A stretch of DNA of 64,000 nt from NCBI RefSeq assembly GCF_900002575.1, contig NZ_LN650648.1, forward strand, positions 868,001 to 932,000, in the 5' to 3' direction. Position 1 is the stretch's first letter; each line of letters opens with the position of its first letter. This DNA is from Romboutsia hominis. GTDB taxonomy: Bacteria > Bacillota > Clostridia > Peptostreptococcales > Peptostreptococcaceae. Below are positions 30,537 through 48,170 of the stretch, one piece after another. Position numbers and translations under genes: made by a program. Below the pieces are notes generated by a model that ran no database searches, was not told where the DNA came from, and saw only the letters and a program-made list of their open reading frames with translations.

Positions 30537-30840
30537 AAAAAACGCCTCCTTAATATAAAAAAATTATATCAAATATTAATACCAGGTACTAATAATATTA
30601 TATAATAAATTGTAAGAAAATAACAAGTAAATTTTTAGAAAAATAAAGATATTGTATAATGATATATTATAAAAATTTAAAAAGGTTACAATATTTAAAC
30701 TATAAATAAATAATAAAAAAGTACTATAATGTATACATAGTAAAAAATAGGAAAAACTAATGAATATACATGAAATTTCAAAATAAATTCATAAATACTT
30801 CATATATTAAAGATATAATATAAGCAAAGGAGTGATAGAT

Positions 30841-30945
30841 ATGGGTATAATACTTATAACAGCAGTAATAGTTTGTGTTATGTATGGATTAACATTCTTA
30901 TCATGTTTAAGCGAGAATCACATACTAGATGATATAAACCAATAG
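30841..30945 (+). CDS. Small single-pass membrane protein (34 residues)
   Basis: A stand-alone short gene with AAAGGAGTGA upstream of ATG and a strong terminator 45 bases after its stop. The product starts MGIILITAVIVCVMYGL, one hydrophobic helix, and ends in a short polar tail. No family known. The complete expression signals argue that it is real. Confidence 0.62.
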   Translation: MGIILITAVIVCVMYGLTFLSCLSENHILDDINQ

Positions 30946-40089: not shown

Positions 40090-40314
40090 ATGTTTACCTC
40101 CAAGTATATTTATACTAATTTTTAACAAATATTTCATAAAGAATTCATATAAATATTATAAAATGAAATATAACATATATTTATATATTAAGTTAAAAGG
40201 TTACAGTATTTATACCAATTATAGTATAGACACATGTTATATATAAATATACAATATATTATAAGGTTATGATTATCAATGTATAATCACAATAATAAAA
40301 GGATGGGATGAAAA

Positions 40315-40986
40315 ATGAGCTTTTTTAAAAGACTAAAAAATATAGTGGATGCAAAGGCTAACAAAGCGTTAGATAAGCATGAAAATCCAATTGAAATGTT
40401 AGAACTATCTATAACTAAAAAAGAAAAGTTATTACAAGATGCTAAAAAACAATGTGCAAACTTTATAGCATCAGTAGATGGAATTAGAAATGAGAAAAAA
40501 GATATACAAGAAAAAATAGATAAATATGAAGAAGCCACTAAAGTTGCTATACAAAAGGAAGACAATGAAAAAGCGCAAAACTTTGTAAAACAAAAATTAG
40601 AACTTCAAGGAAAATTAACTCAAACAGAAGCTAGAATAAAAGAACAAGATGAAAAAATACAACTTGTAAAAAATAAAATATCAGACTTAGAAATAGAAAT
40701 ATCTAAAATGAAATCTAAAAAGCAAGAATTAGCTACAAGACTTGATGTTGCTGAAATAAATAATGATATAAATGAGACATTAGCTGGTTTAAATGATGAT
40801 CATGGTATAAACTTAGATGAACTGGAAAAGAAAGTTGTTCAAAAGGAAAGCTATGGTAAAGCATTAGAAGATTTAAAACCTAAAGACGAAGATGAACTTT
40901 TAGATGAATATATAAGTAGTTCTCCATCAGTTGATGATGAAGTAGCTAAAGAATTAGAAAGAATAAAAGAACAAATGAAAAAATAA
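40315..40986 (+). CDS. pspA: Phage shock protein A (PspA/IM30 family)
   Basis: A 223-residue, almost entirely helical coiled-coil protein. The N-terminal amphipathic helix MSFFKRLKNIVDAKANKAL contacts membrane, then ENPIEMLELSI and long heptad-rich helices follow, as in PspA, LiaH and IM30. These ESCRT-III-like proteins assemble on damaged membranes and limit proton leakage. GGGATG precedes the ATG. Two unknown genes follow that may form a module with it, though a terminator lies in between. Confidence 0.92.
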   Translation: MSFFKRLKNIVDAKANKALDKHENPIEMLELSITKKEKLLQDAKKQCANFIASVDGIRNEKKDIQEKIDKYEEATKVAIQKEDNEKAQNFVKQKLELQGKLTQTEARIKEQDEKIQLVKNKISDLEIEISKMKSKKQELATRLDVAEINNDINETLAGLNDDHGINLDELEKKVVQKESYGKALEDLKPKDEDELLDEYISSSPSVDDEVAKELERIKEQMKK

Positions 40987-45672: not shown

Positions 45673-45694
45673 TTCATAAAAAATTCATATAGTT
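45673..45694 (+). promoter_or_regulatory. 11-bp-spaced direct repeat upstream of the response regulator
   Basis: TTCATA at 45673 and again at 45684, eleven bases apart, as expected for tandem binding of an OmpR-type regulator. The same TTCATA half-site occurs downstream of the kinase at 47692-47713. Confidence 0.5.
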
Positions 45695-45749: not shown

Positions 45750-46414
45750 ATGAGTGAATCTATATTAGTTATTGAAGATGATTCAGATATACAAGAACTC
45801 ATAGTTGAGTTTTTAGGTTCTAAGGGATATAAAATAGACTCAGCTAATGATGGAGTAGAAGGTATACAAAAGTTTAAGGAAAAAGAATATGATTTAATAA
45901 TACTTGATATTATGATGCCAAATTTAGATGGACATTCAGTATGTAAAATGATTAGAAAAAATTCAAATGTACCTATAATATTTTTAACAGCATTAACTGA
46001 CGAATCAGATCAGATAAAAGGGTTTGATTTAGAGTGTGATGATTATATAACAAAGCCTTTTTCATTTAAGTTACTTATAAAAAGAGTAGAAGCAGTGCTT
46101 AGAAGGACATCACAAACTAGTAGTGACTGTTTAATCTTTGAAGACTTAAAATTAGATTTAAATACGTATACAGCACAAATAAAAGAAGAAACTATAGAAC
46201 TTACTTTAAAGGAATTTAATATACTTAAGACTTTAATAGAAAAATATCCACAAGTGGTAACTAGAGAAAGTTTATTAGATAGTATATGGGGATATGACTA
46301 TTATGGAGATACAAGAATAGTTGATGCACATATAAAAAATATAAGAAAAAAATAGTATTACCATATATAAAAACAGTAAAAGGTATAGGATATACTCTTG
46401 AAAAAGATATTTAG
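45750..46414 (+). CDS. OmpR-family response regulator, frameshifted near the C terminus
   Basis: The receiver domain is intact: acidic pocket EDDSD, phosphorylation Asp in LIILDIMMPN, Thr in FLTALT, and Lys in YITKPF. The winged-helix effector follows (LTLKEFNILKTLIEK ... SIWGYDYYGDTRIVDAHI). The reading frame closes at 46355 right after NIRKK because a run at 46346-46352 has seven A. With eight A the frame continues IVLPYIKTVKGIGYTLEKDI to a stop at 46412-46414, the normal end of the family, overlapping the kinase start by 17 bases. It is either a homopolymer error, a real mutation, or slippage. Confidence 0.85.
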
Positions 46415-47666
46415 TAAATGGGAAAAATTAAATATAAAGTATAAACTATTTACAATAACAACAGGGTTATTACTAGCATTAGCTATAATAATATACCTAA
46501 TCTTATATTTTTTATTACCAACATATTATTATGAGTATAAAATAGGGAATTTCGAAAAAAGTGTAGCACGACTTAAGAAAGAATCAGTATTTTATACAAC
46601 GGATGAATTAAAAGAGAAGCTACATCAACTAGAAGCGAGTCAAAATCTATCTGTTCTTTTAACTAACCAAAGTGGAAGAAGAATTTATGGTAGAACAGAA
46701 TTATTAATACTTAATCATAGTAAATATATAATAAATAATAGTAGAGAATACCCTAAGAATATTACTATATATACTAAAGATTCAATACTCCCATATAATT
46801 TAAGTATAGTAATGCCGCTTCAGCCTATAGATGAAGCTACTGAGGTTATAAGAAATCTTATGCCATATATTATAGGGGTAGCTATATTAATAGCTATAAT
46901 AGGTGCATACATATATACAAAAGTAATAACTAAACCTTTGATAGATATAATAGAAACTGAAAGAGAAGCTGAAAATAAAAGAAAAGAATTTATAGCTACT
47001 ATATCTCATGAACTAAAAACGCCAATAACTATAATAAGTGGACAACTAGAAGGTATGATTTATAATATAGGGAAATATAAAGATAGAGATTTATATTTAG
47101 AAAAATCATATGATACTACACAAGAGTTAAAAGAATTGGTAAATGAGATGATAGAAGTATCAAAATGTGAAATATTAGAAACTGATTTGACTTTAGATAC
47201 TGTTAATTTAAGCAATATGGTTGAAAATATAATAAAAAGACAAGCATTTTTAATAGAAGATAAAAATTTAAATACAGTAATAGATATAGAAAAAGATTTG
47301 TATGTAAAATGTGATGAAGATAGAATAAAAAAAGCAATAAGTAATATAATAAACAATGCTATAAAATATTCACCAAATAAAGAAACTATAATAGTGAAGC
47401 TGTACACTAAAAGTGTAAAAATTGCTAGAAGAAAAACTGATTCAAAAATATATTTAGAAGTCGAAAATACAGGCATTACTATAGATAAAAAATATCTAAA
47501 TGAGATATTTAAGCCATTTTTTAGAGTAGAAAAATCAAGATCTAGAAAAACTGGAGGAAGTGGGCTAGGGTTATATTTAGTTAGTAAAATACTTCAAAGT
47601 CATGGATTTAAGCATAACATAAAAAATAAAGAGAATTCAGTAATATTTACTATAGAGTTTAATTAA
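46398..47666 (+). CDS. Membrane sensor histidine kinase
   Basis: A 422-residue kinase with two membrane segments (about 17-42 and 155-177) around an extracytoplasmic sensor of roughly 110 residues. HisKA follows with ATISHELKTP, then HATPase with ISNIINNAIKYSP (N box), VENTGITI in the G1 position and GGSGLGLYLV (G2). The G1 form N-T-G is seen in VanS-like kinases. The start is TTG overlapping the restored end of the response regulator, so the pair is translationally coupled. The stimulus is unknown. Confidence 0.88.
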   Translation: MKKIFSKWEKLNIKYKLFTITTGLLLALAIIIYLILYFLLPTYYYEYKIGNFEKSVARLKKESVFYTTDELKEKLHQLEASQNLSVLLTNQSGRRIYGRTELLILNHSKYIINNSREYPKNITIYTKDSILPYNLSIVMPLQPIDEATEVIRNLMPYIIGVAILIAIIGAYIYTKVITKPLIDIIETEREAENKRKEFIATISHELKTPITIISGQLEGMIYNIGKYKDRDLYLEKSYDTTQELKELVNEMIEVSKCEILETDLTLDTVNLSNMVENIIKRQAFLIEDKNLNTVIDIEKDLYVKCDEDRIKKAISNIINNAIKYSPNKETIIVKLYTKSVKIARRKTDSKIYLEVENTGITIDKKYLNEIFKPFFRVEKSRSRKTGGSGLGLYLVSKILQSHGFKHNIKNKENSVIFTIEFN

Positions 47667-47680
47667 ACTTTCAAAGTTCA

Positions 47681-47730
47681 TTCACTTAAAACTCATATTA
47701 AATTCATATTAAAAAGTTAATATATAAGTA
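47681..47730 (+). promoter_or_regulatory. Three 11-bp direct repeats and promoter before the small RNA
   Basis: TTCACTTAAAA, CTCATATTAAA and TTCATATTAAA follow one another at 47681, 47692 and 47703 without gaps. They end where a -35 would be, about ten bases before a TATAAG -10-like box at 47723. This is the classic layout of an OmpR/PhoB-type activated promoter; the adjacent two-component system is the natural regulator. Confidence 0.62.
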
Positions 47731-47734
47731 TAGA

Positions 47735-47850
47735 AAGACTAGCTTAAAAACCATAATATAATACCCTAAAATAATGGCAACACTCCCTCACATCCTCCTA
47801 TGGGTTGCCATTATTTATATCCCCTATATTTTATATAGGGGATATTTTTA
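47735..47850 (+). ncRNA. Probable small regulatory RNA with C/U-rich loop
   Basis: No ORF. A perfect 13-bp stem (47769-47781 with 47804-47816) presents a 22-base loop rich in C and U, containing CTCCCTCACATCCTCCT. It is followed at once by a perfect 13-bp terminator hairpin (47817-47845) and TTTTT. The loop is complementary to Shine-Dalgarno sequences (AGGAGGAUG), as in C-rich sRNAs such as RsaE/RoxS. The start near 47735 is inferred from the promoter position. Confidence 0.55.
47817..47849 (+). terminator. Terminator of the small RNA
   Basis: ATATCCCCTATAT / ATATAGGGGATAT with a three-base loop, then five T. Confidence 0.9.
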
Positions 47851-47960: not shown

Positions 47961-48170
47961 ATGACTACTATGAAAAATTATATGAATAATATGAAAAATG
48001 ATATGGAAAAAAGACTTGATGGAGCTAAAGAAAAAGCAGAAGATGTAAAAGAAAATGTACTAGGATTTATGGCTAATATGGAAAATCAAGTGGAAGATGG
48101 AATGGAAAGATATAAAGAAAAAAAATTTGCTAAAAATTTAAAAAAACAAATGGAAAAAGAACATAAATAA
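47961..48170 (+). CDS. Small charged helical protein
   Basis: A 69-residue Lys/Glu/Met-rich protein predicted to be one or two long amphipathic helices (KNDMEKRLDGAKEKAEDVKENV), similar in style to YtxH or CsbD-like stress proteins but not assignable. AAAGGAGGATAT precedes the ATG; this site is complementary over eight bases to the loop of the small RNA encoded just upstream. It is monocistronic. Confidence 0.6.
   Translation: MTTMKNYMNNMKNDMEKRLDGAKEKAEDVKENVLGFMANMENQVEDGMERYKEKKFAKNLKKQMEKEHK

Follow-up and report, generated by a model that had tools for sequence, protein, structure and literature searches.

A small RNA gene of approximately 120 nt was identified on the forward strand at positions 47730 to 47850 of the window, a stretch of 64,000 nucleotides of the Romboutsia hominis genome (3.04 Mb, single contig). 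The lone hairpin of an earlier note on this DNA is now one of an RNA family that is defined by a covariance model and has a likely regulator and a DNA box; computation established this family and its structure, the repeats, the common boxes and the co-occurrence of RNA and regulator. In the reading that we consider likely, the RNA is the trans-acting arm of the adjacent two-component system, being induced by stress through TTCAYA units and repressing ribosome sites with its C-rich loop. DNA binding by the regulator, the signal and the anti-Shine-Dalgarno action are the elements of this reading that we infer.

A structured RNA family with a conserved C-rich loop

The RNA begins with an unpaired 5' segment (47730-47768; GAAAGACUAGCUUAAAAACCAUAAUAUAAUACCC) that is conserved in the alignment, followed by a hairpin (47769-47816) with a perfect 13-bp stem, the arms of which span 47769-47781 and 47804-47816, and a 22-nt loop (47782-47803) containing UCCCUCACAUCCUC. 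A predicted intrinsic terminator with a 13-bp stem and a T-run occupies 47817-47850, or 47817-47845 as read from the sequence. The fold of segment 47733-47852 has a free energy of -33 kcal/mol and a z-score of -5.6, which was equalled in none of 200 shuffles, and four terminators were predicted on both strands of 3.3 kb, as compared to 0.4 in shuffled sequences. The hairpin, terminator and repeats described in the earlier note were read in the sequence as stated there, with a greater extent than noted, and the start, which had been placed near 47735, was moved by homology to about A47730. At gathering scores, a search of the whole window with Rfam 15 recovered only a TPP riboswitch (RF00059) at 1520-1616, and the place of the RNA was without a match, also to RNAIII; the best model there by E-value was PyrR, with 26.6 bits of the 54 needed. 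The RNA was also unmatched by Rfam in eight loci with other copies. The RsaE model, which is included in Rfam, did not match the window at the gathering score or up to an E-value of 5.

In a DNA search with 300 bp from position 47661, 36 of 61 genomes were matched, with the strong matches in the same bacterial family. Six loose BLAST matches without the loop or the hairpin (L110_844, L043, L102, L013, L048 and L063) were removed by eye. A covariance model, R1, was built from 28 aligned copies, including the window copy, which scores 93.9 bits in its own genome. The model search that the earlier note had proposed gave 86 matches in 41 of the 71 genomes of the family. A scan at an E-value of 0.01 covered 297 genomes of the order, an even sample of a larger group, under stricter filters that may miss weak matches; it returned the same 41 genomes and none outside the family. 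The window copy has all of the family features, namely the 5' strand, the hairpin, the C-rich loop and four 11-bp repeats. The eight genomes of genus g17, labelled Clostridioides-like partly because they agree with published C. difficile loci, have six or seven matches each, with partial copies at contig ends included in the count. Carriage of the RNA by prophages or plasmids was considered and rejected: the copies of L080 and of the window were unmatched in a phage collection, as was the L080 copy in a plasmid collection, and R1 at an E-value of 0.1 detected none among the 80 viral contigs listed, taken from at least 120 stretches with the 14-base loop pattern.

Covariation was analysed for 77 matches in 71 loci (overlapping loci counted), the weakest accepted at about 45 bits, which correspond to 53 distinct rows. 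Among these rows, the stem positions are paired in 99.5% of the cells, as compared to 29-70% in slid controls, and all 11 modelled pairs have changes on both sides. Cells with double changes numbered 134 versus 32.5 in shuffles, and the covariation score of 0.732 (0.298 in shuffles) was reached in none of 500 shuffles, whereas 11 double-change pairs were reached in 30 of 500. Since the alignment was fitted to the model, it leans towards structure; in the unfitted alignment A1, RNAalifold predicted ten pairs, nine of which have double changes. Conservation is of sequence in the loop and in parts of the 5' strand, and of pairing in the stem. Conservation of the loop among relatives, on which the earlier note had made its reading depend, was observed: UCCCUCACAUCCUC is exact in 31 of the 53 distinct copies, UCCC is present in 46 and CAUCCUCA in 27, and a variant, UCCCUCACACUCUUU, occurs in genera g10 and g14. 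A conserved unpaired CU-rich stretch is hence present in the family.

Repeats, promoter and the adjacent two-component system

Four head-to-tail 11-bp units are located upstream of the RNA at 47670-47713 on the forward strand: R0 (TTCAAAGTTCA, 47670-47680), R1 (TTCACTTAAAA, 47681-47691), R2 (CTCATATTAAA, 47692-47702) and R3 (TTCATATTAAA, 47703-47713). Judged from 53 distinct copies, they form a predicted site for two response-regulator dimers. Three of the units had been noted earlier behind the kinase gene and are as described; the unit upstream of them, R0, is the addition. A match to TTCAYA in at least five of six positions was found in 37, 45, 42 and 52 of the 53 copies for units R0, R1, R2 and R3, respectively, the figure of 52 being favoured because the anchor unit was chosen by its best match. 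The units occur in the register 0, -11, -22 and -33, and other offsets between -40 and -6 were seen in 0-5 of the 53 copies. The four-unit score in the window is 21 of 24, a value that one of 60 Markov-shuffled 64-kb windows also attained; the repeats in the window alone are therefore only moderately surprising. A -10 hexamer without a -35 hexamer, TAATAT, is predicted at 47718-47723 with a start at A47730, based on alignment to TATTAT of other copies and on the published start-site letters of the C. difficile RNA RCd6. It replaces the TATAAG at 47723-47728 that had been taken for the promoter box. Two of the loci removed by eye, L048 (G031) and L063 (G036), have kept the repeats and the promoter, with another short C-rich sequence and a terminator behind them; here, the RNA body may have been replaced while the promoter stayed.

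Upstream of the repeats are genes for an OmpR/PhoB-type response regulator (45750-46355, forward strand; Pfam Response_reg, with Trans_reg_C at residues 2-56 of 77) and a sensor histidine kinase (46398-47666, forward strand; HisKA and HATPase_c, as identified by Pfam and orthologues). Among 13 named loci, the closest kinase is that of Romboutsia lituseburensis, with 70% identity. The regulator frame is broken in an A-run (46346-46352), which removes approximately 21 residues from the end of the winged helix in this frame, whereas the regulator has 217-226 amino acids in 35 of 35 other rows (31 distinct loci, four of which occur twice). The run has seven A in the window and eight A, or an interruption, in near relatives (eight in R. 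lituseburensis). The difference may be due to a sequencing or assembly error, to recent loss or to slippage at the A-run; if the frameshift is real, the RNA is perhaps uninducible in this strain of R. hominis. For the kinase, PnpS/PhoR models gave the highest scores, which fell short of the cut-off. The phosphate regulon was rejected as a candidate: no TTCAYA pair was found in the stretches around pstS from three genomes.

With a cut-off of 1e-65 that was fixed ahead of the search, regulator orthologues were identified in 53 of the 71 family genomes, comprising all 41 with the RNA and 12 without it, and none of the 18 genomes that lack the orthologue has the RNA. By genus, the RNA is present in 15 of 17 with the regulator and in none of six without it (Fisher's exact test, p = 2.8e-9 by genome and 2.8e-4 by genus, with kinship uncorrected and counts non-independent). 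In genus g11, three genomes have both the RNA and the regulator and two have neither; in genus g6, eight of nine genomes have the regulator and two have the RNA. Orthologues to the sensor half of the kinase were found in 43 genomes (45 matches less G009 and G067, which matched over short stretches), 38 of which also have the RNA and five of which have the kinase only; three genomes (G009, G029 and G068) have the RNA and the regulator and lack the sensor half. A copy is located directly behind the kinase in 25 of the 41 genomes, as read from coordinates, with kinase ends estimated where the N-terminal half alone matched. For the remaining 16, the copies are elsewhere in 14 and at some distance in two (approximately 3.3 kb in G016 and 1.7 kb in G064); at the G016 locus (L299, G016:C1:2026350-2029610), an ABC-transporter operon is inserted between the kinase and a copy with a diverged loop. 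The repeats and the co-occurrence make control of the RNA by the adjacent two-component system probable, in line with this part of the earlier interpretation; the RNA gene and its conserved C-rich loop are supported as well. The remark that an RNA beside its regulator had not been described was mistaken in kind: RNAIII adjoins agr, and AgrA activates both this RNA and its own operon; FasX adjoins fasBCA. RNAIII is a peptide-encoding RNA of 514 nt under a LytTR-type regulator.

Boxes of the same type mark other genes. Two 11-bp units, TTCATAAAAAA and TTCATATAGTT (45673-45694, forward strand), make up a predicted response-regulator box in the promoter of the regulator-kinase operon, and TTCAYA-N5-TTCAYA precedes this operon in 18 of 37 rows (14 of 32 distinct loci) and in no mononucleotide shuffle (200 per row). 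The CiaR box, TTTAAG-N5-TTTAAG, differs from it. We searched for a strict two-unit box, TTCAYANNAAATTCAYA, in 14 genomes with and four without the regulator, and identified 21 sites in 12 of the 14 genomes and none in the four, while a reversed control gave four sites in the 18 genomes. Eight of the 21 sites belong to the regulator operon itself. The 13 others include sites before a gene for a PPIC-type foldase in four genomes (Pfam on two), each with four units in register at a match of at least 4/6, and sites before a PspA gene in G017, a small hydrophobic ORF in G001, a TMEM164-like gene in G002 and, within an opposing ORF, FtsH in G033; five have no evident gene behind them. Loci L391 and L392, in G061 and G016, have a regulator-type box at a common place, also with no evident gene behind it.

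A looser pair, in which the first letter is T or C as in the third unit of the RNA, occurs at four sites in the 64-kb window, as compared to 0.29 expected. Two of these are the RNA and the regulator operon. The others, both on the forward strand, are TTCATAAAGAATTCATA at 40133-40149, before a PspA/IM30 gene (40315-40986), as also in G017, and TTCATAAATACTTCATA at 30788-30804, before a 34-aa hydrophobic ORF (30841-30945). Similar ORFs of the membrane-peptide type, with 34-36 amino acids, are located behind three units in L403 (G001) and L105 (G011), and the window ORF is possibly a small membrane feedback peptide. Since the foldase, PspA and the membrane peptide have envelope or secretion functions, the common box before their genes and the regulator operon suggests an envelope stress signal.

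Copies at other loci and two small RNAs of C. difficile

Other RNA copies were located near polA in G022, G076, G079 and G025, and as second copies in G010 and G069, as well as beside another conserved gene in G009, G029 and G033. In the Clostridioides-like genomes, copies (L296, L313, L316, L298 and L315) adjoin blaI-blaR or a D-Ala-D-Ala carboxypeptidase gene. BlaI, BlaR, the carboxypeptidase, DapF, PolA and the ABC transporter were confirmed by Pfam in one genome each, and other neighbours were named by eye.

We compared these copies to two small RNAs that have been identified in C. difficile (PMC3649979, PMC7438776, PMC11651100, PMC5340389). RCd6 (CD630_n00170) lies behind blaR on the same strand, with a start at A560340, a second end at C560320, the promoter TATATA-17-TTAAAT and a Northern blot signal of about 100 nt, while SQ1498, of 150-156 nt (about 150 nt by Northern blot), is located between the kinase CD2113 and CD2112 and has a -10 element only (PMC3649979, PMC7438776, PMC11651100, PMC5340389). 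In seven copies behind blaI or blaI-blaR in the Clostridioides-like genomes, the hexamers are 17 bp apart, with TTAAAT in five copies and TAAAAT in those of G016 and G064. These copies have A at the predicted start and C 20 nt further, and the G016 copy ends after approximately 100 nt. Because the copies adjacent to the carboxypeptidase gene also have an RCd6-like promoter, it is the location and not the promoter that singles out RCd6. The kinase-adjacent copy has the orthologous kinase on one side and a small gene on the other, and its length up to the terminator is approximately 150-170 nt. The published start letters of SQ1498 (A, with C five and T six bases further) fit the G061 copy and not those in G035, G016 and G064, a fit that was sought post hoc. 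From locus, strand, promoter and length, RCd6 and SQ1498 are probably members of the window RNA family, and transcription of probable family members is thus supported by the published work.

Exponential-phase levels exceeded those of stationary phase 12-fold for RCd6 and 10-fold for SQ1498; RCd6 was approximately 2-fold down in a spo0A mutant and SQ1498 3-fold up in a sigH mutant (PMC3649979, PMC7438776, PMC11651100, PMC5340389). RCd6 was also listed as Hfq-associated and was lower in infected mice, and overexpression of either RNA caused no detectable change in growth or in the mRNA levels of predicted targets, with the regulation left open by the authors (same reports). The portions of these four reports available to us give no family, regulator or box for the two RNAs, and those of PMC3649979 contain no mention of paralogs, copies or a family. 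Nor do the passages found on RCd6, SQ1498 and CD2113/CD2114 unite the two RNAs in a single family or give their regulator. The comparison would tie two unexplained small RNAs of C. difficile to one probable envelope-stress circuit.

Proposed mechanism, alternatives and comparison with known systems

In the proposed mechanism, an envelope or secretion stress signal would reach the kinase, and the phosphorylated OmpR-type regulator would act on the four head-to-tail 11-bp TTCAYA units at -60 to -17 and activate the RNA promoter, which has a -10 and no -35 element. Boxes of the same type would drive the regulator's own operon together with the genes for the foldase, PspA and the small membrane peptide. 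The C-rich loop, displayed at the tip of a strong hairpin, would pair with purine-rich ribosome sites and repress translation, perhaps with Hfq, and the RNA would thereby lower the envelope load while the protein regulon repairs the envelope.

The anti-Shine-Dalgarno action of the loop is the weakest step. For the pairing with AGGAGGAU ribosome sites that the earlier note suggested, the fitting CCUCCU is present in 4 of the 53 distinct loops, and pairing of the loop with 42 candidate ribosome sites in the window was generic, with the nearby AGGAGGAU gene ranked fifth. This small gene (47961-48170), which encodes a charged protein of 69 amino acids with no Pfam match, was consequently rejected as a special target. 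The target search with the loop that the same note had proposed gave 104 sites with at most two mismatches from the 14-nt loop complement in eight genomes, antisense matches to the RNA genes themselves included, versus 133 in the reversed control. Targets with full complements were rejected on this lack of enrichment. Shorter seeds may therefore be enough for pairing, or else the RNA has another mode of action.

A real, regulator-driven RNA could instead work chiefly as a sponge or by binding protein, with Hfq or other small RNAs as its partners, and not by covering ribosome sites. The absence of enriched full complements fits such a role, as do the listing of RCd6 as Hfq-associated (PMC3649979, PMC7438776, PMC11651100, PMC5340389) and the conservation of the unpaired 5' strand, which an anti-ribosome-site loop alone leaves unexplained. 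However, short seeds might escape a 14-nt search, and the loop has C-rich motifs similar to ones listed for LhrC, the csRNAs and RNAIII (PMC4691137), and we regard this role as unlikely. Less probable again is that the family is real and that another regulator uses the TTCAYA repeats, the co-occurrence being due to kinship. The genomes compared are related, and G031 (L048) has three repeats and a C-rich RNA-like stretch without a regulator orthologue at 1e-65, but boxes of the same type mark the operon of this very regulator, and presence and absence of the RNA and the regulator coincide within genus g11.

Two further explanations concern the RNA itself. Instead of, or besides, having a regulatory role, the RNA might encode a short peptide (window reading, MATLPHIL...), as suggested by an ATG frame across the loop in 31 of the 53 distinct copies, or 43 if GTG and TTG are included, many of which read M-x-T-L-P-H-I-L. 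Yet 22 copies have no ATG frame, the frame ends vary, the loops of g10 and g14 are read in another frame (MIDSLTLF), the window ATG has no ribosome site ahead of it and the stem changes are compensatory. We therefore give coding a very low probability and judge the frame, short of proof, to be a by-product of the conserved loop. Lowest of all is the probability that the RNA acts in cis on the small gene at 47961-48170, as its leader or attenuator. Although a similar small gene is located behind the kinase-adjacent copy in Clostridioides-like genomes, the RNA has its own predicted promoter and a strong terminator 115 nt upstream of the gene, and copies beside blaR, the D-Ala-D-Ala carboxypeptidase gene, dapF, polA and other genes have no such gene behind them. 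The trans-acting RNA arm of the two-component system remains the preferred reading.

Functionally, the window RNA, which has no Rfam family and is defined by its own model R1, appears similar to LhrC, the csRNAs and RNAIII. Like LhrC1-5 of Listeria monocytogenes, it is multicopy; all LhrC copies are under one two-component system, LisRK, respond to envelope stress, bind Hfq and block translation by binding mRNA through CU-rich sites, of which LhrC has three as compared to one loop in the window RNA (PMC4132741). No LisR consensus was known at the time of that report, whereas the window RNA has an explicit box, many copies behind the kinase gene and no match in Rfam. The csRNAs of the CiaRH system, with two to six genes per streptococcal genome and 87-151 nt in pneumococcus, are also two-component-driven and are complementary to the ribosome site and start codon, but their pairing stretch is located between two stem-loops and not in a hairpin loop (PMC4387999). 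RNAIII of Staphylococcus aureus is activated by AgrA, which activates its own operon too, and masks ribosome sites with UCCC hairpin loops, although in quorum sensing (PMC4691137). The CU motifs tabulated there are CCUCCU for the csRNAs, UCCC for RNAIII and CUCCC for LhrC (PMC4691137).

These three are closer than RoxS/RsaE, the precedent named in the earlier note, which is under two-component control (ResDE/SrrAB) and has C-rich regions, one of which blocks translation initiation, but differs in having four such regions, an NO/redox signal and a different regulator box (PMC4409812). SpoZ of C. difficile is a small RNA that is directly activated through repeats by a two-component regulator (RgaS-RgaR), although with VirR-like sites, with kinase and regulator genes apart and, in the available parts of the report, with no C-rich loop family described (PMC10602386). 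The window RNA would add an example, among the relatives of C. difficile, of how two-component systems have convergently recruited multicopy C-rich RNAs. More tentatively, and with somewhat less than even confidence, the circuit could be a Gram-positive counterpart of the enterobacterial sigma-E logic, in which one envelope-stress two-component system would control, through repeat-type promoters of one kind, a repressing RNA arm and a repair arm made up of the foldase, PspA, the small membrane peptide and the system itself; in Clostridioides, the RNA arm would be spread over approximately six dispersed loci, including blaI-blaR and the carboxypeptidase gene, with RCd6 and SQ1498 as siblings that shape cell-wall and secretion output.
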